Made by a program: the position numbers and the translations under genes. A DNA stretch of 64,000 nucleotides from Branchiostoma floridae. Its lineage: Eukaryota; Chordata; Leptocardii; Amphioxiformes; Branchiostomatidae. Numbering within the stretch: position 1 is the stretch's first letter; each line of letters begins with the position of its first letter. The stretch lies in NCBI RefSeq assembly GCF_000003815.2, contig NC_049997.1:14610666-14674665 (forward strand). Reading direction: 5' to 3'. This document shows, one piece after another, positions 2,171 through 61,938 of this stretch. The notes under the pieces are model-generated. The model had not been told where the DNA came from. It searched no databases and saw only the letters and a list, made by a program, of their open reading frames with translations.

Positions 2171-4376
2171 AACGGGGTATTAAGCCCGTCCAATCTCCTT
2201 CTGAATATAACTTCCTTGGTAGGACATAGAGTCACCACAAAAAAATAAAGCCACTGTGAATATTTTAAGATTTACAGTAATATTTTGCATCCTGTGCATG
2301 AGGCCTGTTGCATATACATTTTTGTAGGTATCAGGGGCGAGATGTAGACCATAAAAAGTCTTAAACATCTCAACGTAAATCTTAAACATATGTTAACTTA
2401 CAAAAGATCGGCGTTTCATGCAAATATCTATTGATTAAATATTCTGCAGTTAATTGGTAGATATACGGTACGAAAATAGCGATGCATAAAAAATCTGCTC
2501 AAGCCCTACGGATCTGGAATTAGCTACCACCAGGAAGCTTCTGATCGCGAGATTTTAATTGGGAAATCCTTGAAAAATACCTGCACAAAACCTGTCTTGT
2601 CCAAGCCTGTTCCCTCGGAGTTGCTGCCGCCATGTTTTCTCCCTTTTCCCGCCGAACTGTCCGGGTTGTCCCGGGGTCTGGGGCACGAGCCTGGACATGT
2701 ACACCGCTCACACCAGCCCCGTATGGGTCGGACACGATCGCGGCCGGCTATACCCTCCCCATGCACTTCTGACTGTGTTTTTGTCCTGTGAAGATGAGAT
2801 ATTCTCTTCTGATCTTCAGCTCCGAATCGGCGGGGAGTTAGCTGGAACAGTAGTCAGGTCATAGGTCAGGCTAGGTCACGTGTTGGCTTGGGCAAGCCCA
2901 AGTTAGTATTTTGGATGAGGTGATGGGGACGATAAAATTTCATGTGAGAATATGGAACGAATTGTTTTTGTGACAGGAGACTGTGGCATCGTGTAGTGTT
3001 TTTGTTAGCATTTGGACCCAAATTAAGGNNNNNNNNNNNNNNNNNNNNNNNNNNNNNNNNNNNNNNNNNNNNNNNNNNNNNNNNNNNNNNNNNNNNNNNN
3101 NNNNNNNNNNNNNNNNNNNNNNNNNNNNGTTACTACGGAGGATGATACTCAGGCTAGAATTTTCTCACTTCAGCCACAAATGATTACGTAGCATCTATAA
3201 GGGTCATACATGTAACGTTACCTCTGATAGGATGCTATATGGCAGTCTCATGTTTGGGGAGAGCAACACTTTGAACACGTTAAAGAACCCACCACACTGA
3301 TTGAAAAGGGTAGGGGCCGGCCGTCCCGGTGTGAGCAGTTAAAACTTTGGTTTGAGTACCATGCTTAAGGCCCTCAACATATATTATCTAAGATTTAACG
3401 TTACCACGTAATAACAAAGAAAGAGAAAGATGATATCATAGATTTCTCACTTGCTTAGCATTTCTACCTACATTTCTACCCAAAAGAGATCTGTGTCCGG
3501 GGACATATTCTAAGTTTATAAAGAGGAAGATGAGGCTAAAAGCACACTTCAGTTCAAAAACAGAAGTAGCATCCAGACTATGATAAGCCAACACTAATAA
3601 CTATATACCAAGTTCATTATTTAATAGCTAGAAGATAGTCACTTTGTCTAGTAAGGCTTGGTGTTCTCTACAACTTTGCAGTCACAAAAATGGTAAGGAT
3701 CTCAAGGAAAGTATGTTTTATTTCGTTACATTTCTAAGTAAAGGAGCATGTGCAAAATTTAAACTTCTTAGGAAATGCATGTTGAACGAGACGTTAAATA
3801 GTTGCTTTTATGCATTTCTTGTTTCATTTATTGAGGTTTGAGGTATCCAATTACGTATTATGCTATCCAATTTATTGCATGTTTCCATTTTACAATCGTA
3901 CATCCTGCCACTGTGCAATGGTAAAATAACACATACTAGGACAAACAGACCGGAAACAATATTACAAATTGAGAAGACGAATTTGATTCTTGAGCTGAGC
4001 TGAGCTTTATAAATCCCTGAAATCATGCAAAAGCATCAAAGTTTACACTACACCTTCCTGAGATACAGGTAAAATCATTGGTAAATATTCAGTACAAAAG
4101 GAACAAATATCTCTGAGTGTTGTGAAATGCATGTAATTGACAAGATGTGTGTCGTGTATAATTCTGCAATGCGTCAAAATACCTCACTCAAGAAATCTGA
4201 AGGGGGTTCCTGCTTCTACAATACAGTCAACTAAATTGCACAAGATAACTCAATGTGAACAGTTCAGGAACATGATTGACGGCGATAATATCTCAGTAAA
4301 TACTTCCATTTTTAAGTGCCTATTGCTATGATATTCCTTTTAATAGTTATGATGATACATTCATGAGCACAAGGGC
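2171..4376. other. Non-coding, with assembly gap
   Basis: No supportable gene. Short ORFs here lack family resemblance and splice context. A GC-rich patch at about 2590-2770 has no motif I recognise. A run of exactly 100 N at 3029-3128 is an assembly gap of unknown true size. The segment lies beyond the 3' end of NADSYN1 and may include its distal 3' UTR. Confidence 0.5.
3029..3128. other. Assembly gap (100 N)
   Basis: Exactly 100 consecutive N, the usual placeholder for a gap of unknown size. Confidence 0.99.
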
Positions 4377-11200: not shown

Positions 11201-14200
11201 GTAACTGCTTTTGGCATGGATGTTTAACTGTCATAGACATATTTTTCACAATTGGTTATAATGTCAATAGGATAAGAATCTGTGCAAGACTGCAGATGGT
11301 CAGGAAAAATCCACTTACAATGGTTACATTATGTAAAACAGTACTAAGTCAAAAGTAAATGGCTGATACATAATTATTTTTTATACATCTTTATTATTTT
11401 TCTTTTAGCAATCTGCTTTTCATTCTGTTACCATATACATGACATATACCTTTCTGACATATGTTTTTTCTTACACTTTGTGTTACAACATAGTTTCAAG
11501 GTCACACAGTTACACTTGGAGCCCAAATCTATGTACGATCTGCCCCAAGAGCTACCTAGCACTCAAAAGTCATGACTGTAGCAGGTCCAGAATGCAAGAT
11601 ACAAAAACTGGAAGTTCCTTAGAAAGCTTCTAGTTGGCCCATTATAATTATCAAACTTGACCTATTTTTCTGACCCCCACCAAATTACTAAATACCATAA
11701 GGCTCCATCCAAAGCTTCTCATGTTGTCCTCTCAACTGACTGACACACAAATGTAACAAATGTTAACAGAACTAGAGTTATACTAGTCCTTACCTCCATT
11801 GGTAACAGCCTGACAGACCAGGTGACACATTGATGCCACGATACAGGCTGTGGAGGAACTGTCAATACCTCCACTCAGCGGCAGGAAGAAACCTCCCTAC
11901 AAAATAAAACAGAAACATACATGTACATTTAGTTAAATAATGAAAATCCATTTAAATAATGGATATCCAGTCTTTGATTATACTGCTGCTTGGGTCCCTG
12001 ACACAGGTAGGCAGCAGTCGGCTAGTCTTCACACTGTGCTTCCATGCGGCTCTGTCCAGTCGGTTCACCCCTGTTAGACCGCACATTTTTATGTCTCTCC
12101 TAACACATTCCATCCAGGATTTCCTTGGTCAACCACAACCTCTGTTGCCTGACAATTTCAAAAAAGAGAAGTTTCCAACATTTGATTTGAACACTGAGAA
12201 CAAACATCACTGTCTTAAATGTTGGTGATCAAATTGTTGTGATGATGAAGTTCTAGCAGTTGACTAGTGACTGTGGAACTTGCCGCATTTTTACAATGAT
12301 TGTTGAAAACTCACATCATCAACCAGCTATATAATAAGCCTACAGCCTGATGAAAGACTATGAGGCAACCTTTACCCTTACCTCTACCTTTACCTCTACC
12401 TTATCAAGTTTACATACCTGCCCACTTCTCCTGAGGTAGTCCCAGAGCCAGCAGGCAGGGCCTAGCGATATCTCCTCCTCTGGACTGTGGTACCGCCATT
12501 CCACGGGCTCGTACGATGGCAGGAAGATGTCATCGTCTTTAGACAAGGAGAAATCTGTCCTGACCCTGGGGTAGGGCTCCGATTGGGCGGCCTGTGGTGA
12601 AGTGAAATCATCATCATCATCTATAGTAGCATGGTATCCACCCTACTCTTAGCCTGGGTTCCATCCGGATAGTAATTCGCTCCAGCATTTATCATATAGC
12701 CATATAAAGTTGTTTCTCACTCTGACATTTATTTTACACTATATACAGCCGCTTCTCTGCTATACTGTCTGGGAACCTTGACATCTTGTATAACACAGGC
12801 TTTCATCCAAGAAATAGAATGCACCATGCCCATCGATGCTATTTATGAAATCACAGTTGCAAGCGAGTTCTTTTTCAAATTTTTCTCGAATTGATGTTCT
12901 TAAAGAATAAAGTTGTTGGTGCAGGTTGAAACAACATGTCAAATTTTATCCTTATTATGAGTAGCTTGGCAAATAAATTGATATTTTCCAACCTGGGTAT
13001 GACAAATAAAATATAACACGGTGTATTTTGTATCACCCTTGGTCCCAGCATTCCCACAGGTCAAATCGGTTTTCAGCCATCGGGCGATCTGACCCGCGGT
13101 CGGGCTGGTACTAGTACTTTGGCTGATACAGAATACACCATACAGAATAGAATGTAAAATAAGTCCTCCTACTCACAGCCCGTGCTCTTGAGGCAAAGTT
13201 CCCTCTGTAACTCCTGACATCCTCCAGGTCTAGTGTAGCAGTGAGGACCTCTACCTCATCCAGCGAGAACTGCGAGCCTTGCACAACAAAGCTGCCATTG
13301 ATAGCAATCATTGCGCAGCCGTCGTAGTACAGGCGGTCTCCGTCACAGCCTTTCTGGTTCGCAAACAAGTAGATCCCTCCACACTGTAGTATACAACAGT
13401 AATGTAATCAAAATAAAGAACTTGAGTAATACCTACATCAGGGCTCGAAATACTTTTTTCTGCATACCTGCACTGGTGCAGGTCACATTTAGAATTACCT
13501 GCACCAGACAAATTTTACCTGCACCACTCTGAATCTAGGAAGTATGGATCACAATAGAATTTTTGAGGAACCATTGCTATTTTTCCTTCATAATTTATAG
13601 GTGGTAAAAGTCAATGCAGCTAATAACAATCCATATACACCTACATCATAGGACATTTATGTATAAAACCCAGTACTTGGACCAGTGCAGATTAGGTGCA
13701 GGTAGGCACCAGAAATACCTGCACAGCTCCAATTTTAGCTGCACTAACCTGCATATGCAGGTAATATTTTGAGCCCTACTACATGCAGGTGACAAGTGTA
13801 ATAACATGGTTAAGGGTTGTTGACTTAGAATCTAAAGGTTCTGGGCTAAATCCCTAGAAGGTCCCAATACCACACCTTTGGGAACCCACATTTTCTCACT
13901 TCACTTAGGAGAGCAACACCTCAGACAACTTCAAATACGTACCAAACATATAAAAAAGATTAGAATTCGTTGTGTGAGTGGATTCAACCTTATAGTTTTA
14001 CAAAACTTGTGTGATATGACTTCATATAATTAAAGGGGATAATGCCTGATGTACAAAGGGGCTAATAAACTTGCAATGTGGACGTGCTAACTTAACTAAG
14101 TATCTAAGACCTGCTCAGAAAAGTCATACCTTCAGGTACCAGGTTTATCAACCTAGGAATGTTCACAAATTTGTTTTCTAATGGAGTTGTCATTGCCAAG

Positions 14201-22876: not shown

Positions 22877-22999
22877 ATTCTCCAAGCAGAGGTCGGGTCG
22901 CGAAGATAGTAGTGGTCGAGATTTTACGGAATCGTAGCCAGTAAAAATTCCGACCACTTCTATCTCCGGATCCGCGACCCAACCTCTGCTTGTAGAATA
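22877..22999. mobile_element. Short hairpin MITE
   Basis: The arms ATTCTCCAAGCAGAGGTCGG and its near complement CCAACCTCTGCTTGTAGAAT enclose about 80 bp that also pair (GGTCG-CGAAGATAG with CTATCTCCGG). It shares the CTCCAAGCAGA start with the larger element at 17083-18108. Confidence 0.6.
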
Positions 23000-23084
23000 C
23001 TTGTGTGTAGCTTCAAACGATACCCCCAAAATCTTCTTGGAGAAAGTATGATAGAGATTTTAAAATAATAAACAAAGAAAACGA

Positions 23085-23337: not shown

Positions 23338-23415
23338 TGGGCGGGGCTTAAATACCAGCTGTCGCAGATTCTTTGAAAAACGGTCATCAGAAATGACGTA
23401 ACGAAAGTATAAATA
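23338..23415 (+). promoter_or_regulatory. Promoter of the Reeler-like gene (GC box and TATA box)
   Basis: A GC box (TGGGCGGGGC, 23338-23347) is followed by a consensus TATA box (TATAAATA, 23408-23415), 73 bp upstream of the ATG at 23488. Transcription would start near 23440, leaving a short 5' UTR. A clear TATA box fits an inducible or tissue-restricted gene. Confidence 0.65.
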
Positions 23416-23487: not shown

Positions 23488-26400
23488 ATGTGGTCTTTAG
23501 TTGTGGTTTCTTCATTCTTCCTTCTCTCCGTTGTGAAGTGTCTACCACTGAAAGAAGACCCTATGATGGCATGTCTTGCAGGACTTTCTGAAAACGGTAT
23601 GTGCTTTTATTTTTTCATTTCAGACTGAAGACTAGACCATAAAGACGAGCATTGTTTATTAGTTCTGTTAATCGCGTTTCTTTTCTACCGGTAGATATAT
23701 CACTGTTTCTGTCCACATAGTGAAATGTTTGCGTTGAATCGTTTTCGCAAAGTACAGCAACTGTGCAAAATCGTTAACGTTACAGTCCGAATACGTGTTT
23801 TGTTCCAGTCTACTGTATCAAATTGTTTTATTCATGAATTCTAAACGACGCGAAAACCTCTTTTCCTTTCGTCTGTGAAATAAAACTGCGATTGTAAATC
23901 TGACGTGTGCAATCCATGGCCATAACGTTATGTTCTATTTTATAAAAACATGTCGACCGCTCAGAGATTCAAAAATGGGAAACTGAAACTGTCATCGAGT
24001 GTAAAGTTATCTTTGATTTGGCTATAAAAATTATTGGAAATTCTGAAAATACACTGTTACTCTAAATCCATATTGTCCATTGCGAAGACCTAAAAGTGCT
24101 GTACAAACAGCAGAACGTTGGGCTCGATTTGACGACTGTTAAATATGGGATATGGCTTTCCTCGTATTCATAAAGAATCAGTCGGGCCCGCTCATGAGTA
24201 CAAGTATTTTGTAGATGATTTTCCCACTTCCCACTTCGCTCATGATCGTACGTTTGCATCCATAAATGACTAGCCTAAATCTAAGCATTCACTTCGCTTG
24301 ACTTTTCTTGTTAGCGGTGCGCCGCAGCTCAATTGAGCCCGACAGTTTTCGACTTATCTGGGACGAAGTCTTCCAACCTCGAACAACTTCCAGCGTTGTC
24401 CAAAATTACAGGGCACTTTGAGTTTTAAAGGACGTTTCAACTTTGTGATGATTCAGTCAACTGTCACTATCACTGTATCATCGTTTTGTACGTTGTAAAA
24501 AACATGAAACATCATAAAATAGAAGAAAGCGCAATCTTTCAAATGGCACGCTAACATGAAAATAGCTAGGTGTACGCCTTCCTAAGCAAATGGAACAATG
24601 AACTAGCTAATAGAGTTATGTTTTTGGTAGCTATAGCGTTAACGTTTATGTGCATGTATGCATATATGTATTTTTGAATTTTTGTATGTATATTGACGAA
24701 CACAAAATTCGAGAATTCCTAGATACTAGTATTTGTATGTACATAGGTCGTGATAAGACCTCAAAATCATTAGCTTTTCAGCCCCCTAGCGGCTTGCTAA
24801 GGTTTTGCAATGGAACCTAAGGTTTTGATATACGGTGTTCTGGACATGCTATGGGTGTGCCAAGGGTACCACAGTGGTGTATCTTGTGGAAAAGACTAAA
24901 CTTTACGTAACCAACACCAAGTTAAATTGTCATTTACCAACACAGATGAACTTTATTTCATGCTAAGTAGTGTATCTTCTTTTCTACAACTTCACTCAAT
25001 GCCACAACGATAATATGGTAACTTCTGCAAATTCACTCAAGGCTGCTACAAGAGATATACTTTTCTGTACTTTCGGTACTTTCTTGTTTTGTTGACCATC
25101 TGCGGAGTTGAACAAAAATTTTTTACTGTTTTTTTCGAAATCAGGAGAAAATTAAAACGCGCGCGGGTCATCTATAGAACTCACTTTCAGTATACCATAC
25201 CTTGCCATTAGAAACAGTGGCTGTACTAATCCAAGTTGAGCAAAGTTGATGACAATTCTTATTGCTTCCAAAGTAACGTTAATTGGAACAGGCATACTCA
25301 GAGATATAGTTTTCAGTACTTTCGGTATTTCATTTCTTGTTGTGTTGACCATCTGCGGAGTTGAACAAGATTTCTGTTGTTTTTTTCGAAATCAGGCGAA
25401 AATCAAAACGCGAGGATGTCATTTATACTAGAATTCACTTTCGGATGCCTTACCTTAACAGACTTGATTATTTGGTCCATCTATTTGGTGCTGAAATTCT
25501 TTAACGTATAAAAACCTACTTACCTACCCAGCCCCTGTAAAAACAGAATAGTACAACCTTGGCATTAGAAACAGGAGCAGTACAAATCCAAGTCGAGCAA
25601 AGTTGACGACAATTCTTATTGCTCTCAAAGTAACGTTAATTGGGGCGGGCATATCCAGGTCTAAATATATCCACTAGACACTAAACAGCCTTCTTACACC
25701 GTGGGAGGTTCACCCTGTTTCGCGATGCTCAATTGAAAACCAATTTTTATCCGAAACCCGAGCGCAACTAACGACGGTTAATGACGTCATTACCAAGCTG
25801 AAAGACGTCTGAAGAGACTACAGTTTCAAGTCGAGGGAAAATGAAATGTAAATTTCGTCGTTTTCTGGTTACTTTCATGTCTCTTTCATGAAGTTATGAT
25901 ATCAACTATGTGGTCACTACAGGGTACTGACTCGAAATAACCTTACTGTGTGTGGCCGAGTATTACACACGTTGTAGACAGGCTAGTGACCGTCCTTAAC
26001 TCCAAAAGAGTGTTACTTGCGGGTAGATACTAATTTAGGAAGTGAAAAATAATACTTCTTCACATTTTACAGTAACGTACCCAATTTATTCTACTAAACT
26101 CACAACGGTACTAGTACTCTCTAATCAAAGCTGGCTGTATATATGGCTGAATACAATGTGTCTGACGAGGCCTGACAAAGGCTATGTTAAACCATTTGAG
26201 CGGAGATTTTGCGCCTTCTTCGTATGCACATCGCCCCTCGTTTCTGCCAAAACGTTTCATGATGGAAGTGTCTATATGTATATAAGGAATGCATGGGTAG
26301 GGTCTCCATGGATTTCTTTAGTGATGTTTATATTGTTTTAAACATACACGTCACGTTGTTTACCACAAGCTTAAGTGGAAATCTGCAAAAAGTTCTCTGA

Positions 26401-29400
26401 TTTATGTACTCTTTGATATATCTATTGAAAAAAAAAACAATCGGAGTTTCGTGCTCCTTGTAACTCGGCCATGACATGTTGACTTGGTTATTGGTATATG
26501 GATGACATCAGCGTGCATCGATTTTCATCCGTTTCCAAACGAAATATAACCATACTGTAAAAATAGTAAATATATGCTTTAAGTTGCAAAAATAACATTG
26601 GAAAACGGATGCTGATGTTGTTCTAATCCTACCATGTTACCGATCTTGTGCTCTCGGGAAAGGTATTTACTATTTTGCACAACTTTTCTCACTCCAGTCT
26701 CAGCTGTCTCTAAATGTGCTTTAGCATTTGTTATTATATTTCAAATTGCGACGTTATGACTACACGCGGACTGACTTCAACTCCTACTCTGCTTGCAGGT
26801 CTGGAGAAACCCGTGCACCCAAACCATGACAGCCGGGTAAAGTACGTCCTCACCGTGAGTGGTCATGACAACGACTTGGGTCTGATACAAGCAGGTGGGA
26901 GCTACAACGGTGAGTTAAACTAAGAATTTTTTTCTTCTTGAGTTGAATTCTTTCAATGAATTTATTGACATTGAGGTCACACATAAATGGAAGTCTGAAC
27001 GGCGTTGATATTAACAATTGAAACACGGGTTGACAAATATATACATTCCGCCTGATATGACGCCCATTATTTAGTACATAATAGAACTAATAATATGGCC
27101 AAATTGTATACATGTAGATTGGTTGAATTATTGTCTTTGAATTATAATCTGCATGAAAAATGGATGTATAGTTTTCACTCTTCATGGATTTTTTAAGTGT
27201 GTATGCATGTCCGGTGGAGTATCTAAAAAAACCTCTGGATGGACTGCGATGGCATTTGGTACATTAGTAGATCGATATTTTTGACCTGACAGTCTTCTTG
27301 GATTTTTGGCCTCCTAGTGACCGACTTTGCAACAGACCTTTCTCTTCTGCGTGTCCGGTAGAATATCGTAACATTTGTTGATAGATGTGGTGTTTTTGTT
27401 ACATTTTTGGTCGTACGTCGGTCGGGCAGCCAGAAACACAGCATGTTTTAGGCATATCTACTTACGAGGGGCATTCAATAAGTGATGCCCCTGACCCACT
27501 TTCAGTTGTCTGATCTAAATGAAATTTTGCATGTGTAATGAGTCATATCTCTATGGGTTATGTTGCAAAAAACAGCTCTGAACTAATTGTGGTTACTGAT
27601 TTACTGGTGTTTGAACTGAGTCAGGTGTGAGATGGAGCAGGTGTGAAATGGAGCAAGTTGAGTGTCGCGCAGTGATCCGGTTTTTGTATTTGAAAGGACG
27701 CACACCAAAGGGGACTTTTGATGAAATGAAAAACACTTATGGTGATGATGCCCCATCATATGACCTTGTAAAACGCTGGCATCCTGAATTCAAACAAGGT
27801 CGGAAGTCTGTGGAAACAGCTCCCAGACCTGGTCGTCCCTCTTCTGCCATTGATGAGGCATCTGTCGGAGGACCAACCTGGGATGTCCTACAAGAACGGT
27901 GTCCAGAGCTACATCAAATGATGGGAGAAATGCAAAACTCTGGGTGGTTCCTATGAAGAGAAAGACTAATACCTGTGCCAAGTTTCATTAATCTCCTGCT
28001 ATGGGAAATGGGTCAGGGACATTACTTATTGAATGCCCCTCGTATCGTCCATCATCTGCTAAGGCTATGGGGCATGGTAATTGTTACAACTTTTCTGATC
28101 ACATAACCCGACTACAAAAAGCTGCGTTCCTGTTCTAAGTTAGTACTAGAGACAAACTCAAGAATTTTGCAAGTAATATTACAATACTGCTGCAGTCTGA
28201 TTACTTCAATCAAGTTCAATGCCTAACTTTTCCGTCCTCTTGTAGTGTCCTTATCGGGACAGTACGGATCACAGTTCCGCCAGCTTGTGGTGGTGGCCAG
28301 CCGGGGACGACTTCAACCCCTCCCGGGTGTCTCTGGGCTGCGTGCCGGTACATGTCTCGGGCTCTCCACGGTCACAAACACAGACAACCGAACCACGAAC
28401 ACGGTCTTTTTCACCTGGGTGGCACCTGACGAGCGCCCTCTGGATGAAGAATGTGTTACGATCAGGTTGGTATACATTTATTCAAGTCTCTGTAATACCC
28501 CCTTCACATGTAGCGAAAATCGATCGGACGACGGGTCTGCGAGCTCTAAATTACGAGGAGGCATGACCCTGACGGGAAGGGGGGACTGCATACACTGCTA
28601 ATAAAACATAAGTACATCATGCTAAAGAGGAACTACGTTTCTTCTAATTCATTTGCTGCAGAGAATTTTGCTGCTTTCCTCAATAACGTATTCTAATAAC
28701 CTCTTGATTTGTTGTTTATCATGCAGGGCGGCTGTCGTCGATGATAAACAGTTTCTCTATCAAAACGATGACCCACTGACCGCACAACTGTGCAGCTCAT
28801 CATGGAAGCAAAGAAACCCGTCGAAACAAAGCAAAACTTCAACCTTACAGTCACCTCTGAGAAGGAAACCGACTCCATCCTCGTCTACCCGACCAGAATC
28901 AGTCCTCTCTTCGCGAAACCAAAATCACGACAGTGCTGAAAAGGAAGGCATACATGTGTATCAAGCTAAAGACAACATAGAAAGCAGTACTGTAACAGTG
29001 AATTCTCAACTACAAGACTTTCCAATGAGAGAGATGCTTCAAAGCATGAACGGAGGGTATCGCACAGGGAAGAGGAAGACACAACCACAATCCCGCCGCT
29101 TTAGAAACCTCCTGAACATTTTGGTGAGACATCGAAGAGAATCTCCGTCGTCGCGGACAGACTTGGCCACAACGACCGAGGACGACCGATCGCTGAAGTG
29201 GCGGCTGATATCAAAGGCGTGCTGTCGGTCAGGCAGTCGTTTTGGAAGCAAGCCTCATCCTACAGACTGTGACGAGGCGTCCAGGAAGTTTGTATCCCGC
29301 AACATTGCCGAACTAACGCACCTACAGCCCGTCTGTGTCGAACAATTTTCCCTCTGTTGCAAGGCAAAACAGAAAGAAGGAGGCTACCTCATTGACAGTA

Positions 29401-30692
29401 GCGATGCAGGACGAGAAGATCAACCAACAGACGATAGCACTGATCAGCGAGCATCATCTGAAACAGCGATATCTGACTCACCGACTGGAGCCAGTTCATC
29501 CACAGCTGTTGGGAAAGAAATATCAACTCAGCAAGCTTGCTGCCTCAACGGACTAAGAACCGCCTACGACTCTGACAAGAGCTGCGTCGACGAAGGCAAG
29601 ACTTACGCCAATCAAACGGATGCTGATGAGCAGGAATATGCTGATGCGGCAACGGCCTGCCTGGCGGAGTTCTCGCGATGTTGCGAGGAGCTACGAGAGC
29701 ATGTCGGAGGGAGTCACCTGCCACATGTAGATGTGTCCACTCTACAACTAGTACAAGACCTGCAGTTAGAGCAACACTGTTGTAGACAAGGGTCCGTTGA
29801 GGGACTATCACCTGAAGCAGACTGTGAGCAGAGTGCCACGGAGTATGTCCGGCTACCGCTCAGAAATTCCACCGACAGGCAACTGCAGTGTTCCGGCAAG
29901 TACACGGAGTGTTGCTCGGCAAGACAGGCTCAGAATGCCAACCTAATAGCACTGATCTATCCAAGTATTCGTCACAACAAAACCCTAAAGACAGCTTCGC
30001 TATTCAAAAACGTAACAACTGATGATGTTCAGAGCCAAAGCACTGACATTGGCTCTATCATAGATAGAATTTGGACACTGGAACCCCAAGTAACAAACGT
30101 CTTACAGTCAGAAACAACGCCTTTAAGGATGGAAGAGGAGGACTCTAGCCAGTCTGAACAGAGTTCGGCAGCCCTCACTAACTTTGACAGAAATGGCATG
30201 ATTCAACCTGTCACCGAAGTAGACAATCCCAGTCAACTCGCTGAAGGTCCAACTACCGCCCCCTTGCGACCTGTTACTGAAGGACACATGACACAGTCAA
30301 TCTTTGAGAGATCAAGGGAACCCACAGCTAGTCCCAGCCCAATGGCACAACGTTCACAAAGCCCACTGAGCTGGTACGACATTGGCACCGACACGTTGGT
30401 AGTGCTCTCAAAACACAGGCGGACACTGCGGCTGTGCTGTCTGCAGGGTAAAGCGGTAGATGTCGACACTGACCACCCAGAGTCCTGCCAACTGGACGCG
30501 GAAAGCTACACGAGTGGAACACGCCTAACTGACCGAGTGAAACAGTGCTGCAAGGACATTTTTGTGCACTGCTGTGAAAGTATGGACCCGGGACACAGGG
30601 GGACGACGTTAACTCGAGCCTCCGTCAGCAACATCAGGCGGTTACTGACGTACAGCGGGGAGAACACAAACAGAGACAGATACTACAGCTGA
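23488..30692 (+). CDS. Secreted Reeler-domain protein with four anaphylatoxin/fibulin-like Cys repeats
   Basis: Exons: 23488-23596, 26799-26909, 28246-28465, 28727-30692. Phases join cleanly to give 801 aa. Residues 1-18 are a signal peptide (MWSLVVVSSFFLLSVVKC). Residues of about 26-169, spread over exons 1-4, resemble a Reeler domain: SGQYGSQFRQLVVVASRGR, a central Cys, VFFTWVAPDERPLDEECVTIR and a terminal LC. The last exon encodes a Ser/Thr/basic linker and four repeats at residues 312-358, 418-466, 498-543 and 717-763. Each is CC-x(13-15)-C-x(20-24)-C-x6-CC, the cysteine pattern of anaphylatoxin and fibulin type I modules with a longer third spacer. No transmembrane segment is visible, so it is probably secreted. 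The splice model is inferred from sequence. I do not recognise an orthologue. Confidence 0.85.
25060..25665. repeat. Interleaved local duplication in intron 1 of the Reeler-like gene
   Basis: Block X (CTTTCGGTACTTTC ... TTGACCATCTGCGGAGTTG ... TCGAAATCAGG) occurs at about 25065-25180 and 25310-25425. Block Y (GCATTAGAAACAG ... GACAATTCTTATTGC ... AAAGTAACGTTAATTGG) occurs at about 25195-25295 and 25555-25645. The order X-Y-X-Y indicates duplication of a unit of about 250-360 bp. Confidence 0.75.
27465..28042 (+). mobile_element. Internally deleted mariner transposon in intron 2 of the Reeler-like gene
   Basis: Inverted ends of about 33 bp (CGAGGGGCATTCAATAAGT... and its complement) are flanked by TA on both sides. 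Inside, the ORF 27627-27956 encodes the N-terminal helix-turn-helix of a mariner-type transposase (VIRFLYLKGRTPKG, YGDDAPSYDLVKRW, SVETAPRPGRP). It then jumps to unrelated-looking C-terminal codons; the catalytic DD(E/D) core is missing. At 578 bp it is less than half of a full mariner, so it is a non-autonomous deletion derivative and not a host gene. Confidence 0.9.
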
Positions 30693-32707
30693 TCTGCAAA
30701 GAAACTTTCTGCAAGGAAACTGAACATACAATCTTATCCAACCCATTCTCCTATGCAGAGCATCACCGATGGCTAGTACAATATACCTTGTGATGCTCTG
30801 GGCTGAGTTTTTCCTTTTTTTTATTTCTTTGGGGTTGGCCTCAGACCAGATGTCAGCCAATCAGAGAATCACCTGACAGTTTTCCTTTAATAGCTAAGCC
30901 AATAAGGTTAGAGGCCATAGCCAAGAAATTGGAAACCTCAGCCCAATTTTGCAGAGCCTCAAGATGTTACATTGTATTGGTCACGGGTGAGACTTTGCAA
31001 GGGAGAATGATGCAACCCAATGTAGAAACAGTTTTACCAAATCTTTAGCCTTTTCTTTCCGCATTTTTAAGACATTACTGTCAGTCAGTGTATACAGACT
31101 ATGAGACAAAAGCTGCACAAAAAAGGGAAAAATGGATCATAAGCTGATTATATGGAGATGGAGCGACAAGATGTGATGATGATACTATTCCACTACTGTA
31201 GACATGGTGTAAGCTTTGTTGACAAAAAAAGAGAGCAATTTTCAGAAAAGACTTGCAACAATTCTAGCATAGTTAGGACATGTGTCACAAAGACAACATA
31301 CAATGATATAACTGAAGCACAATAACTATGGTAATGTACCAATGGACCAATCCTTAAAAGTCCCATCCACCACCAAAAAACCTTGCCACTCTCTCATTGG
31401 ACTAACTGCTAATAGCCATTCTCTCATTGGTGGATCTACTGATTATAAAGGACAGTCAGGATTGGTCTATTGCTGTATGTCTAACATATGTACTCACAGC
31501 TGGCAATGTGAGAGAAATACGATACAATCATACAGATTATAGAAAATAGATTATAAATAATAGAATAATGATGACTGAAGTAGATGCCTATATATTCTGT
31601 CTTTGATAGACTATATTATATTAATTATTCATCGATAAATGACTTGGACTTGGATTTATGGCAGTGTGTACAAAAACATAGAAACAAATAAATTGTCTTC
31701 AAGGCTGTTTTAAAATGATGAAGTGTTGATTTCAATGTAAACAATAAAGTTATCTGTAAAAACTTGAATGCAAACTTTGTGCTAAAAGTTTTCTTTTAGA
31801 CATTATAGCTTTAATGATGTCCATAGAGTCCGGCTATATCCTACTCCTTCTTATGATTACATCTAACCTGAAAATTCTGCCATTGCAACAGGACAAGACA
31901 TGAACAGTATTTTAGACCAGCTTTATTCAAAGTCAAGACTGATAAAATATGACAACTTTTTGACATACGTTTGGCAGAGTATATTAATCAGGTGAGGTAC
32001 AACTGGGCAAGAGTGTAACAACATAACTGGTAATGGATAAAAACTTCATTTGCAAAGAAAATGGAATGGTTTAGTTAGCAGCAAAATAATTCATATATCG
32101 TCCCTAACTTCATAGATAGTGAAAACCTTTCTATGGTGCATTACCATACAACTGAAAATATATAGAAGAAAAGTGTGCATGTTGTAACAGTGCTCCCTGG
32201 CAAAATTGTGTGGAATTTCACCTACATGCCCTGATTGAAAGGTTTTTGCCTTGAGCTTTGGACTAAATTCCAATACTGTACTTCTCCTAGGTTGCTTTGG
32301 ACAAAGACCTTTTTTTTCTTTGAATTGGAAAAAACAAAATGATGATAGTTATGCCTGGGGACTACTTGGAACTTCAAATATGGCAAAAAATTGCCCTGTA
32401 CTATTACATGCCAAAATTCTTTTAAAAAAAGAACAAAACATATACTATTCGGCTTTTTTTAGCATGGTGGCTCCAAAAATATACATTGTACTTAGTGTAA
32501 TGACTGACTTCATGAGTTCAAAAGGTAGGATTAAAACTTGTGGTCAAAGAAGAGTACCTTTTGACACATTTTCATACAGTACAAACTAAAACAATAAAAC
32601 AGCACTGTGGTGCAGACGTAGACCCTGCATTTAGTCTGACGAGAGTCTGACATCGTATTACAACCTTACCAATGATGAGAGGCCCCCTAAACCCCATGTA
32701 CAAAACA
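30693..32707. other. Convergent 3' ends of the Reeler-like gene and CCNC
   Basis: No coding region. Plus-strand poly(A) signals AATAAA at 31687-31692 and 31743-31748 suit the Reeler-like gene. A minus-strand AATAAA at 31922-31927 suits CCNC. The two 3' UTRs would end about 200 bp apart. Near 31360-31440 a short CTCTCATTGG word is tandemly repeated. Confidence 0.5.
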
Positions 32708-41825: not shown

Positions 41826-53586
<11,761 letters not shown>

Positions 53587-56260: not shown

Positions 56261-58360
56261 TTACATATGATACTTGTCACTGGCGTGGTTCCTCTTGTGT
56301 CTGATGAGACTAGTCTTGTCTGTAGTCATATGTCCACACTCCTCACACATGAAGGGTTTCTCCCCGGTGTGTGTTCGCATGTGGTTGGTCAGGTGCGTCC
56401 GTCGGATCGCCCTGTAACTACACAGCTCGCACTTGTAGGGTTTCTCTCCCGAGTGTGTCCGCAGGTGCCTGACCAGGTTGCACCTGAAGGCCGTCCTGTG
56501 CCCGCATTCCTCGCACATGTACGAGCGCTCGCCCGTGTGGCGGGTCATGTGGGTGTCCAGGTGGACCTTCTGGGAGGCCGAGTAGTCGCACTCGGAACAC
56601 TTGAAGGGTTTCTCGCCGGTGTGCGTCCGGATGTGGTGCTGCATGTTGACTTTGACCTTGGAGGTGTATTCACACTGCGGGCATTGATAGACGTCTTCTT
56701 CGCCACCCTGCAGACACAAAGTAATATTTGAATGAAAGCTCATCTGTGTTGGTAGAATCCATAGTTTAAGCTTTATCCAACACAAGAAGAGGGGTATATG
56801 GGGAGGCCATATACATTAGGGCTCATCAACCCTCTCTGAACTGTGACGGTGGCAGGTTCCGTCTTCCCGCCATTTACAATTCGTCGTCACTTCCGACTTA
56901 TGTTTGACCGAAAATTTATGGTGAGTTCTTTCCATTTGTGTTGGAACAAAGCTTAAACTTAACAACTAAAAATTCATACAGTCACATGTACATGTAATAA
57001 GCTGTTTCATGGTTTGAACTTCACATACACAAGGTTAAAGTTAAGGCCCTTGACTAGCAATTGTAAATGGTCACATATTAACCATAAGGCAACACACAGA
57101 ACATATGCAGATCAAACCATGAACTAGCTTATCAATAAGACTGGAGCAACAGAATATATCAAAGGCAACAAGAAAGATTTAGTGTGGGCTATTGTCATAC
57201 TTTCTCATAGCAGTTTTTTTTTTAGTTGGCAACAGTTGCTTCATTAAACTTAAAAAGGGGGAGTTGACAGAACAAAGAATTTCAAGAACAACTCCCAATT
57301 TGGTAAACTAATAGTAACAGAATAGCTCTCACAAAAGTTGGCCTCTTCTGTTGACCACAGAAACACAGTTCTACGTACTATTAGATACATGTATGAAGGG
57401 ATACAATACCTCACAACCATCCTGACTGCCTTTGCGGATGGCCTTGGGTACTGCTGCGAAGTCGGAATCTTCATCAGAGCCCGACCACACTTCATCGATC
57501 TTCAACTTCTTTTTCTTTGTTTTCGTCCCCCTCTTGGTTGGTGTCGCCTTCCTCGGCCTGCGTCGTTTTCCGGTCACCAAAGACGACTCCTGTGGCTTTT
57601 TCTTAGAAACCTTAACATCTTCAGAAGTACTATCCTCAAGTTGTGCTGAATCTTCAACATTCGTGTCATTACTCTGAGATGGCTTAGGGCAACCACCAAC
57701 TGCTGTATCATTCTTGGTGGGAGCATGTTGCTCCAAGGTCTCTGATTTGTTGTGATCCCAGGTTGCATCTTCAGTGTTCGGTGGCGGCCCTTGAACCATG
57801 ACAATCTCCGTCTGATGAGAAGTTTCCTTGGACTTGACATTGAAGTTTGCCTCCATACTCTCCTGCCTTGTCTTGCTGAATGATGCAGTTGGCTTGTGCA
57901 TCGCTGTGAACGTGGGGAAAATACTGAAGTTTGTGTATTCCTCTCGTGCAGTTTTGTTGGCGGAATTCTCTACAGACGTCGAGCTATACTGAGTGGATGG
58001 GATTGGTGGGGACCAGATACTTGACATTGTCTGGGCGTACGCGCTCGGGAAGTTCCCTTCGTTTGCAAACTGTTGCATTTCTGTGCGCGGATTGGCTGGG
58101 AATGGCATGCGTTTACGCTGTTGTTCGCCCCAAGCAACACCATAATCCACAGCTTTTTGAACGGCTTCTGGATTCGCAGCACGGTACTCGTATTCAATTA
58201 CGTCGCGAAGGACCGTCACTAGGTGTTCCCTACTGCTGTATTCGGTGCTGATATTTCTCCGGCCCAGTTCTATGAGAAGTTCCTCCAAGTACAGTCTTGG
58301 TAGAACGGCTAATGTCACATCCTTGGACAGACCGCAAGCTCTGATTTCGGGAGTCGACAT
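56261..58360 (-). CDS. SAP-like / AT-hook-like / five C2H2 zinc-finger protein
   Basis: Two coding exons (minus): 57410-58360 and 56261-56707, both phase 0, giving 465 aa. Residues of about 10-60 (VTLAVLPRLYLEELLIELGRR ... REHLVTVLRDVIEYEYR) resemble a SAP-type helix-extended-helix DNA-binding motif. The middle is Ser/Thr-rich and disordered. It ends in a basic run with an AT-hook-like core (GKRRRPRKATP), then KTKKKKLK and an acidic WSGSDEDSDF. The last exon holds five C2H2 fingers with TGEKP linkers (QCPQCEYTSK; FKCSECDYSA; YMCEECGHRT; YKCELCSYRA; FMCEECGHMT). This suggests a nuclear sequence-specific DNA-binding regulator. An acceptor (TTTTTAG) sits four bases ahead of the ATG, so a non-coding 5' exon is expected upstream. 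I cannot name an orthologue. Confidence 0.85.
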
Positions 58361-60315: not shown

Positions 60316-60691
60316 GAATATTCAATATCCAAGGCTCGACTGCTCATGCCCACCCGCGAAGCCACCCACGTCATGTATGCAGCAAAATTGTCTAGAGAAG
60401 TCAACAGCAAGTACACATTCGGACTTACAGATCATCATCGGACAGCGTTCGACTGCCCGGGCCCGAATTGGACGCAAAGCTAGGTCTGTTTACCATTGTT
60501 TTTCTGTCACTTTTTGTCACTTGCAATTAGCCCTCGGGCAAGATCTTGCAATAAACTAAATTTAACAGTGGCGATTTTTAAAAGAAACGTTTCTATCGTG
60601 GATCTTACTGTGGCTACGGGCAAATCTAGTATCGTCCTATGATCAAGGCGCGTTGTTTAGTACAGAAGAGTGAACCTCAGCAAATGCTGCA

Positions 60692-61513
60692 ATGATGAAA
60701 GTTCTAGTCATCTTGTGTGCACTTTTTATCATCATTGTGTGCGTGGCTACAACCACCAGGAGTGAAGCCCTCCCTACAGACTGTATCGAGTCAAAAACAT
60801 CGGTTACTGGTGCGCTGCGTGTGATAGTAACGTGTACTGGTCGAGAGTTGACCAGCTTCCCTGACGACATCCCGCCTGATACTATTGCTCTGAAGCTAAC
60901 GGAAAACAAAATCCGTCATGTTCCACATATTCCACTGCTGAAAAAATTGAACTTGTTGTTCGACTTGAGTAAGAACCTGATCGAAACTCTGTCTTGGCGG
61001 TCACTCTGCAACATTTCTGCCGTGAGTCGAATCTACTTGAATCGAAACAGGATCGTAAACGTCGAATTTGGGAGCTACATCAACGAGCTGAGAAATCTCC
61101 GGTATGTAGATCTGGCATGGAATAGGATCGCATCCTTGGCTGAAAGTGATCTTGGACTGCCCTTGATGAAAGCAAAAATCCACCTCATTCTCAACCCGTT
61201 CCACTGCGACTGCAAGCTGGCATGGCTAATCAACAAGATGAAATGTTTGCGAGACAGTGGAGATGATATTGGGGGAGCTAAATCATGCAAAGCCTCGAGC
61301 TCCTTTCTTTCCAACGCGCACTATCTAGGCGGAACTGGCTCCATGTACTGTGCCTCACCACGTCAGTTACATAAAAGGCCTCTGTCATCAGTTTCCATAC
61401 CTGGGTTAGCTTGTGCAACGATGCCTCCATCAACATCACTGAGGATTTCAACGCATCAGCAAATGAGTGGAAATACGGATGTTGATAGCGCCACCGAGAC
61501 TATGGACAGTTGA
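60692..61513 (+). CDS. Leucine-rich-repeat extracellular protein
   Basis: 273 aa from the ATG at 60692. A second ATG follows at once (MM). A signal peptide spans about residues 1-26 (VLVILCALFIIIVCVA). An N-terminal cysteine region (DCIESK...VTCTG) precedes about four leucine-rich repeats (ALKLTENKIRHVP, LLFDLSKNLIETL, RIYLNRNRIVNV, YVDLAWNRIASL). A C-terminal cap has the typical CxC (NPFHCDCKLAWL) and further cysteines. The frame stops at TGA 61511-61513 with no membrane segment. A transmembrane/tail ORF follows in another frame, so the real gene may continue by splicing or this copy may be frameshifted. Amphioxus has a large family of such LRR proteins; an immune or adhesion role is only a guess. 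Confidence 0.8.
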   Translation: MMKVLVILCALFIIIVCVATTTRSEALPTDCIESKTSVTGALRVIVTCTGRELTSFPDDIPPDTIALKLTENKIRHVPHIPLLKKLNLLFDLSKNLIETLSWRSLCNISAVSRIYLNRNRIVNVEFGSYINELRNLRYVDLAWNRIASLAESDLGLPLMKAKIHLILNPFHCDCKLAWLINKMKCLRDSGDDIGGAKSCKASSSFLSNAHYLGGTGSMYCASPRQLHKRPLSSVSIPGLACATMPPSTSLRISTHQQMSGNTDVDSATETMDS

Positions 61514-61629
61514 AAAATCTGTCGACTGACCTGCTCTGTCGTACTGAACTGTATCTGGTTTATCATTTCCACCAACATGTATTGTTTTGTGTTTTGTGTT
61601 ATTTTTTTGAAAGTGTTCTATGGTGTAAC

Positions 61630-61938
61630 ATGATAGAACTGTTAGTGTTACATTATTCGCCGGGACGGCTCAAGGTTAAGCCATGGGGGAGTGTAGGGAT
61701 GGTGATCGGAACCGTCCACATCATCATCATCATGACATCAGCCGGCCTTGTCGGGATAGTTTTAACCGCCTGTGTGATCTTAGAGTTAATCAAATACCGA
61801 CGGTTGCAGAATCTCCCAAACAGGGCAGCAAATGTCCTTCAGCACCAGAACACCGTACCGTTTCAAAACCCTGTTTACGAATACGCCAGCAACAGCGCCG
61901 ATCAAACTGGACCAACATCCTCCATAGAACTATCATAG
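61630..61938 (+). CDS. Transmembrane and cytoplasmic-tail ORF, probable end of the LRR receptor
   Basis: From ATG 61630 the ORF encodes about 102 aa. It has one strong membrane segment (VIGTVHIIIIM...GLVGIVLTACVIL), a basic stop-transfer (KYRR), and a short tail with NPVYEY, an NPxY-type motif, ending at TAG 61936-61938. Its frame is shifted relative to the LRR ORF, which ends 117 bp upstream. The order (signal, LRR, LRRCT, then TM with NPxY tail) is that of a single-pass LRR receptor. An unrecognised intron or a one-base shift between about 61410 and 61690 would join the two. No clear donor/acceptor pair was found. Confidence 0.5.
   Translation: MIELLVLHYSPGRLKVKPWGSVGMVIGTVHIIIIMTSAGLVGIVLTACVILELIKYRRLQNLPNRAANVLQHQNTVPFQNPVYEYASNSADQTGPTSSIELS

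Follow-up and report, generated by a model that had tools for sequence, protein, structure and literature searches.

A Branchiostoma floridae gene predicted to encode a Reeler domain followed by four anaphylatoxin-like cysteine modules

Complement, fibulin and Reeler proteins as points of comparison

The anaphylatoxin fold is familiar chiefly from complement C3-C5 and from fibulin-1 and -2. Here we consider a gene of the lancelet Branchiostoma floridae, situated at 23488..30692 on the plus strand of a 64,000-nucleotide stretch of genomic DNA (the window), the predicted product of which joins a Reeler domain to four modules that are very probably divergent relatives of the anaphylatoxin domain. 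In C3-like proteins an RxxR beta-alpha site precedes this domain, termed ANATO (PMC8960428, PMC8089394), and C3a-type peptides are described as ending in a C-terminal Arg (PMC8960428). According to the residue numbers reported for pearl oyster C3, the site RDRR (658-661) is separated by 14 residues from the first CC pair (676-677), and the cysteines 676, 677, 693, 709, 716 and 717 give the pattern CC-x15-C-x15-C-x6-CC (PMC8089394). For fibulin-2, the published cysteine numbers correspond to spacers of 12/12/6 in module 1 and 12/9/6 in module 3, while module 2 is described with two disulphides, not three; the modules dimerise, are contiguous with shared helices, and are followed by EGF domains and domain III (PMC11220139). 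As to the Reeler domain, that of F-spondin (Spondin-1) is described as binding heparin (PMC3117680), and insect and crustacean Reeler proteins reportedly bind bacteria and affect nodulation or bacterial growth (PMC12113285).

The lancelet protein resembles each of these systems in part. With C3, C4 and C5 it shares the order of six cysteines, the CCxxG and C-x3-[FY]-x2-CC motifs, C5a as best fold match and an RxxR site shortly before a module, but it has four modules instead of one and no conserved Arg after module 1. Macroglobulin, thioester and C345C domains found no Pfam match in eight proteins, comprising the window protein and seven Branchiostoma relatives (P0001-P0007), and the GCxEQ thioester motif is likewise absent from all eight. 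The likeness to fibulin-1 and -2 consists in several helical CC...C...C-x6-CC modules within one secreted multidomain protein (PDB 8r5w; PMC11220139), but the lancelet modules are separated by linkers of 31-173 residues, and neither EGF-like domains nor the fibulin C-terminal domain III was matched by Pfam in the eight proteins. In F-spondin, too, a member of the Reeler family (reelin_N) stands N-terminally in a secreted protein, but Pfam shows neither a spondin domain nor thrombospondin type 1 repeats in the lancelet protein. The arthropod proteins noduler and LvReeler are secreted Reeler proteins as well, but the domain fills nearly the whole of them, and CC modules do not figure in the descriptions given of them (PMC12113285).

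Gene model, domains and relatives

Four exons joined at GT/AG borders yield 2406 nt, encoding 801 amino acids and a stop codon that ends at 30692, and thereby bear out the 801-residue reconstruction of an earlier note on this DNA. Exon 1 (23488..23596) carries the start codon and a predicted signal peptide (about residues 1-18, judged by eye), and encodes residues 1-36 plus a single base of codon 37. Its assignment rests on the open frame and on the Branchiostoma belcheri model P0004, because P0004 shares the signal-peptide exon as its first exon and the models P0001-P0003 start differently. Exon 2 (26799..26909; residues 37-73 and one base of codon 74) encodes the N-terminal part of the Reeler domain, and exon 3 (28246..28465; residues 74-146 and two bases of codon 147) its core with Cys110 and Cys143, both placed by the joined frame and by Pfam, and exon 3 also by alignment with Spondin-1. 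Exon 4 (28727..30692), which starts inside codon 147, is a single uninterrupted open frame comprising the last Reeler strand (residues 148-170, with Cys169), a basic linker, a furin-type site, all four modules and the stop codon. Since a single exon encodes both the end of the Reeler domain and the CC repeats, an origin of this exon from a separate gene is nearly disposed of.

The Reeler-like N-terminus proposed in the earlier note is supported by Pfam (PF02014, residues 43-155, 28.5 bits where the cut-off is 21). The same family was matched in four of five sequences (the window protein and P0001-P0004), the miss probably being P0004, which is without about residues 148-274 and without a precomputed Pfam domain. 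When the N-terminal 171 residues were compared with the PDB, three Spondin-1 Reeler chains were matched with whole-sequence E-values of 0.0007 to 0.0014, the best single-stretch values being 0.019 and 0.031 in two alignments. The alignment covers residues 65-170 and in both cases brings Cys110, Cys143 and Cys169 into register, Cys29 lying outside.

The four CC repeats were found exactly where, and with the spacing, the earlier note had claimed: module 1 (residues 312-358, 29220..29360) reads CC-x14-C-x21-C-x6-CC, module 2 (418-466, 29538..29684) CC-x13-C-x24-C-x6-CC, module 3 (498-543, 29778..29915) CC-x13-C-x21-C-x6-CC and module 4 (717-763, 30435..30575) CC-x15-C-x20-C-x6-CC. When the window protein was shuffled 20,000 times with its composition preserved, the pattern did not arise once. 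With the pattern widened slightly, every one of the eight proteins shows four modules (n=32), with spacers of 13-15 and 20-25 followed by x6, and the Gly of CC-x2-G is invariant across the 31 distinct modules. The six-cysteine layout holds for all four modules, except that Cys754 brings the number in module 4 to seven; this residue is present in only two of the eight proteins (the window protein and P0001), and that it might link chains, as reported for Cys500 of fibulin-2, is speculation. When profiles of three module types were applied to the fourth type, window modules 1-4 scored 42.0, 29.5, 37.9 and 27.2, as against shuffle means of 5.6, 4.4, 7.3 and 1.1, with none of 2000 shuffles as high in any case; since these shuffles kept the cysteines, the likeness between the module types extends beyond them.

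Protein matches were confined to Branchiostoma in three homologue searches, each of which scored only about 8000 candidates, those sharing most words. The orthologue models are P0001 (LOC144865527, B. floridae x B. japonicum, 89%), P0002 (Hypp8877, B. lanceolatum, 70%) and two from B. belcheri, P0003 (61%) and P0004 (LOC109476513, 57%), and the full fusion of Reeler domain and modules, including exon 4, is kept in three of the four (P0001-P0003). In P0004, Reeler exon 3 is joined directly to the furin-site region, a gap which is possibly an isoform or a model error, and this sequence was excluded from alignments A2 and A5. The exon-4 profile (A2, four sequences) retrieved a second family, P0005-P0007 (LOC118425117, Bbelb_301290 and LOC144859449, from B. 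floridae, B. belcheri and B. floridae x japonicum, respectively), in which the same four modules stand in the same order behind the same RxRR-E site, but with another N-terminus that has no Pfam match, and with a longer Arg-rich linker ahead of module 4. In a tree of the modules the position labels require three changes, the minimum possible, and bootstrap values for one group per position were 100% for modules 1 and 4 each, 43% for module 2 and 1% for module 3. Given this position-ordered tree, it is most likely that the array of four modules was already in place when the families with and without Reeler diverged. Among the open-licence papers listed, judged by title and abstract beginning, we found none joining Reeler with anaphylatoxin or with amphioxus, none describing the architecture, and none under five of the names or accessions of the family proteins, so that the combination, which the earlier note had thought non-standard, looks new.

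Identity of the cysteine modules

The relationship of the repeats to anaphylatoxin domains is indicated by both profile and fold. A profile of the 31 distinct modules with longer flanks (A4), built for structure prediction after a first profile (A3) and serving as the second search attempt, matched C3a or C5a in 12 of 15 cases among PDB chains, and in two of these alignments the six cysteines and the Gly are in register; by the register with C5a the cysteines should pair 1-4, 2-5 and 3-6. The A3 profile, with short flanks, had drawn on 20 of the 32 modules, those of P0001, P0004 and P0007 (12) being left out, and had found no C3a or C5a; exon 4 by itself, used as a phmmer query against the PDB, matched nothing. 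Structure prediction returned a confident three-helix bundle for module 1, from which the fold of the other three modules follows by alignment. The predicted structures are helical with C5a-like topology: C5a is the best fold match of the module model, C3a and C5a stand first in the structural match lists of two separate modules, and in the exon-4 model, where the C5a match spans module 2, fibulin (PDB 8r5w) ranks second with an rmsd of 11.1.

Several observations nevertheless count against this assignment. Pfam did not call ANATO (PF01821) in any of the eight whole proteins, nor in four single window modules, one shortened module and one three-module stretch, so that searching the joined exons, a check proposed in the earlier note, recovered the Reeler domain but neither ANATO nor a fibulin domain. 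Individual E-values of the A4 search are weak, and a tetraspanin loop with a partial motif ranks above C5a at E 0.21. From the module model Foldseek by itself retrieved four rows, all weak and unrelated and none of them C5a, which surfaced only upon realignment of its 24 best chains. Moreover, the spacers of 13-15 and 20-25 exceed those of C5a and fibulin-2 (11-12 and about 9-12); the middle spacer is indeed longer, as had been claimed, but so is the first (11 in C5a, 12 in fibulin-2). Spacer length does, however, vary within the ANATO family, since pearl oyster C3 has 15 and 15. In view of the longer spacers and the missed Pfam cut-off we name the repeats divergent anaphylatoxin-fold modules, outside the curated Pfam family, which upholds the earlier description of them as anaphylatoxin-like.

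A different known fold for the repeats, an outcome that the earlier note had named as refuting its reading, was sought but did not emerge. The tetraspanin large loop was rejected as module identity, there being one partial match only, and albumin/ECM1, GDNF-receptor and saposin-like CC folds were set aside as less likely, none having appeared in the fold and profile match lists. The stray rows in Pfam concerned Hepatitis_core (0.05) and Penaeidin (8.9), each in a single member, and, in the module search, a nucleoporin model (0.13, under its cut-off); with NCBIfam, some members matched two weak families of no relevance.

Putative processing, possible roles and neighbouring features

Ahead of the modules, residues 281-284 read RHRR (29127..29138), a furin-type site, with E285 next. 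In all eight proteins RxRR with a Glu behind it is conserved, and 26-27 residues lie between the site and the first CC; the linker of residues 171-284 has a net charge of +14. Cleavage at the predicted site is reasonably likely, and from the conserved RxRR-E, the comparable RxxR site of C3-like proteins and the basic stretch we infer a secreted product of two fragments. Between modules 1 and 2 (residues 359-417) no Arg is invariant in the five sequences of alignment A1, and a C3a-type receptor tail at this place is therefore disfavoured. The C-terminal NIRR (782-785) was considered as a C3a-type Arg end and dropped, the paralogues being without RR.

The explanation that we think somewhat probable is that of an extracellular pro-protein, secreted and processed by furin and met in this analysis only among lancelets, with the order Reeler, basic linker, RxRR and four anaphylatoxin-like modules. 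The signal peptide would be removed and furin would cut after Arg284, such that Reeler domain and basic linker could form an anchor, separable from the rest, that holds to sulphated glycans or to the surface of microbes, while the remaining chain, beginning 27 residues before module 1, would constitute a bead-string of disulphide-locked helical modules. These modules might act in the matrix as protein-binding or self-association units, as in fibulin-2. We give a matrix or adhesive scaffold about an even chance of being the main role, and favour it over that of a defence ligand.

A defence protein is the unlikely alternative that survives best. Its Reeler domain would bind microbes or glycans in the manner of the noduler-type proteins, and the furin-exposed modules would be soluble attractants or opsonin partners, giving a signal like that of complement but without thioester machinery. 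The reported bacterial binding of arthropod Reeler proteins speaks for this, as does the RxxR site before ANATO at which the C3 alpha chain starts, the gap to the first CC being 14 residues in pearl oyster C3 and 26-27 here (PMC12113285, PMC8089394). Against it stand the absence of GCxEQ and of any other complement domain by Pfam in the eight proteins, and the want of a conserved counterpart to the C3a-type Arg between modules 1 and 2. Furthermore, net charges of -8 and -4 make modules 2 and 3, respectively, acidic, whereas C3a and C5a are basic.

We consider it improbable that the protein is a lancelet-evolved precursor of anaphylatoxin-type ligands outside complement, in which the Reeler domain, carried by one of the paralogues, would sense glycan or microbe, furin would expose module 1, and the four modules would signal or recruit cells. 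If true, recognition domain and anaphylatoxin would reside in one polypeptide with no convertase, and module 1 would lie near the new N-terminus as in the C3 alpha chain.

Slightly less probable again is a convergent origin, in which the CC modules would belong to a small helical disulphide fold without kinship to anaphylatoxins and would share with these only the arrangement of the cysteines. The lack of a curated HMM match, the weak E-values, the longer spacers, the tetraspanin rank and Foldseek's own list would accord with convergence, but not so the predominance of C3a and C5a among the PDB matches with cysteines and Gly in register, their lead in the structural lists for two modules, or the invertebrate C3 pattern of CC-x15-C-x15-C-x6-CC (PMC8089394). 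Finally, a gene-model artefact fusing a Reeler gene to a neighbouring CC-module gene, to which the Reeler-less family and the B. belcheri model without the Reeler end might point, is hardly credible, and a foreign last exon is rejected, given that residues 148-170 with Cys169 and all modules share one frame and that three of four orthologue models carry the full fusion.

Were the modules of the anaphylatoxin fold, the lancelet protein would provide a third, so far lancelet-only, setting for it, missed by the curated Pfam model, and would show that the fold tolerates longer spacers. It would also offer a testable link between the matrix and complement uses of the module, in that the order of furin site and then module would occur outside thioester proteins, and the Reeler-less sister family allows one to ask which N-terminus was gained or lost.

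Around the gene, a TATA box pattern (TATAAAT, 23408..23414, plus strand) lies 80 bases upstream of the ATG and may serve as promoter, and candidate polyadenylation signals occur on the same strand at 31743..31748 and at 31687, by pattern only. A bacterial promoter scan of the gene-start region and Rfam at gathering threshold across the window gave nothing. About 500 bases upstream of the gene, at 22887-23010, is an imperfect inverted repeat with arms of about 45-50 bases (by eye), and intron 2 contains, at 27463-28044, a decayed mariner-like element, the 69-base inverted ends of which (78% complementary) flank a remnant bearing the Mos1 HTH_48 domain (34.5 bits, cut-off 24.1).

Elsewhere the window has two assembly gaps of 100 N each (3029-3128 and 42855-42954). 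On the minus strand are a 478-residue open frame at 220-1653, perhaps a piece of a retroelement, to which Pfam gave no match at E 0.01, an exon-like carbon-nitrogen hydrolase frame at 13114-13407 (PF00795, 33.8 bits) and a C2H2 zinc-finger array at 56264-56815. On the plus strand, an open frame at 53155-53583 contains a C3HC4 RING finger (PF13920, 41.4 bits), which we take to resemble the MDM2-type C-terminal RING, and a leucine-rich-repeat frame at 60674-61510 (LRR_8, 27.4 bits, cut-off 27), the start of which looks signal-peptide-like by eye, is followed by an open reading frame at 61489-61935 with a membrane-like stretch, likewise judged by eye.
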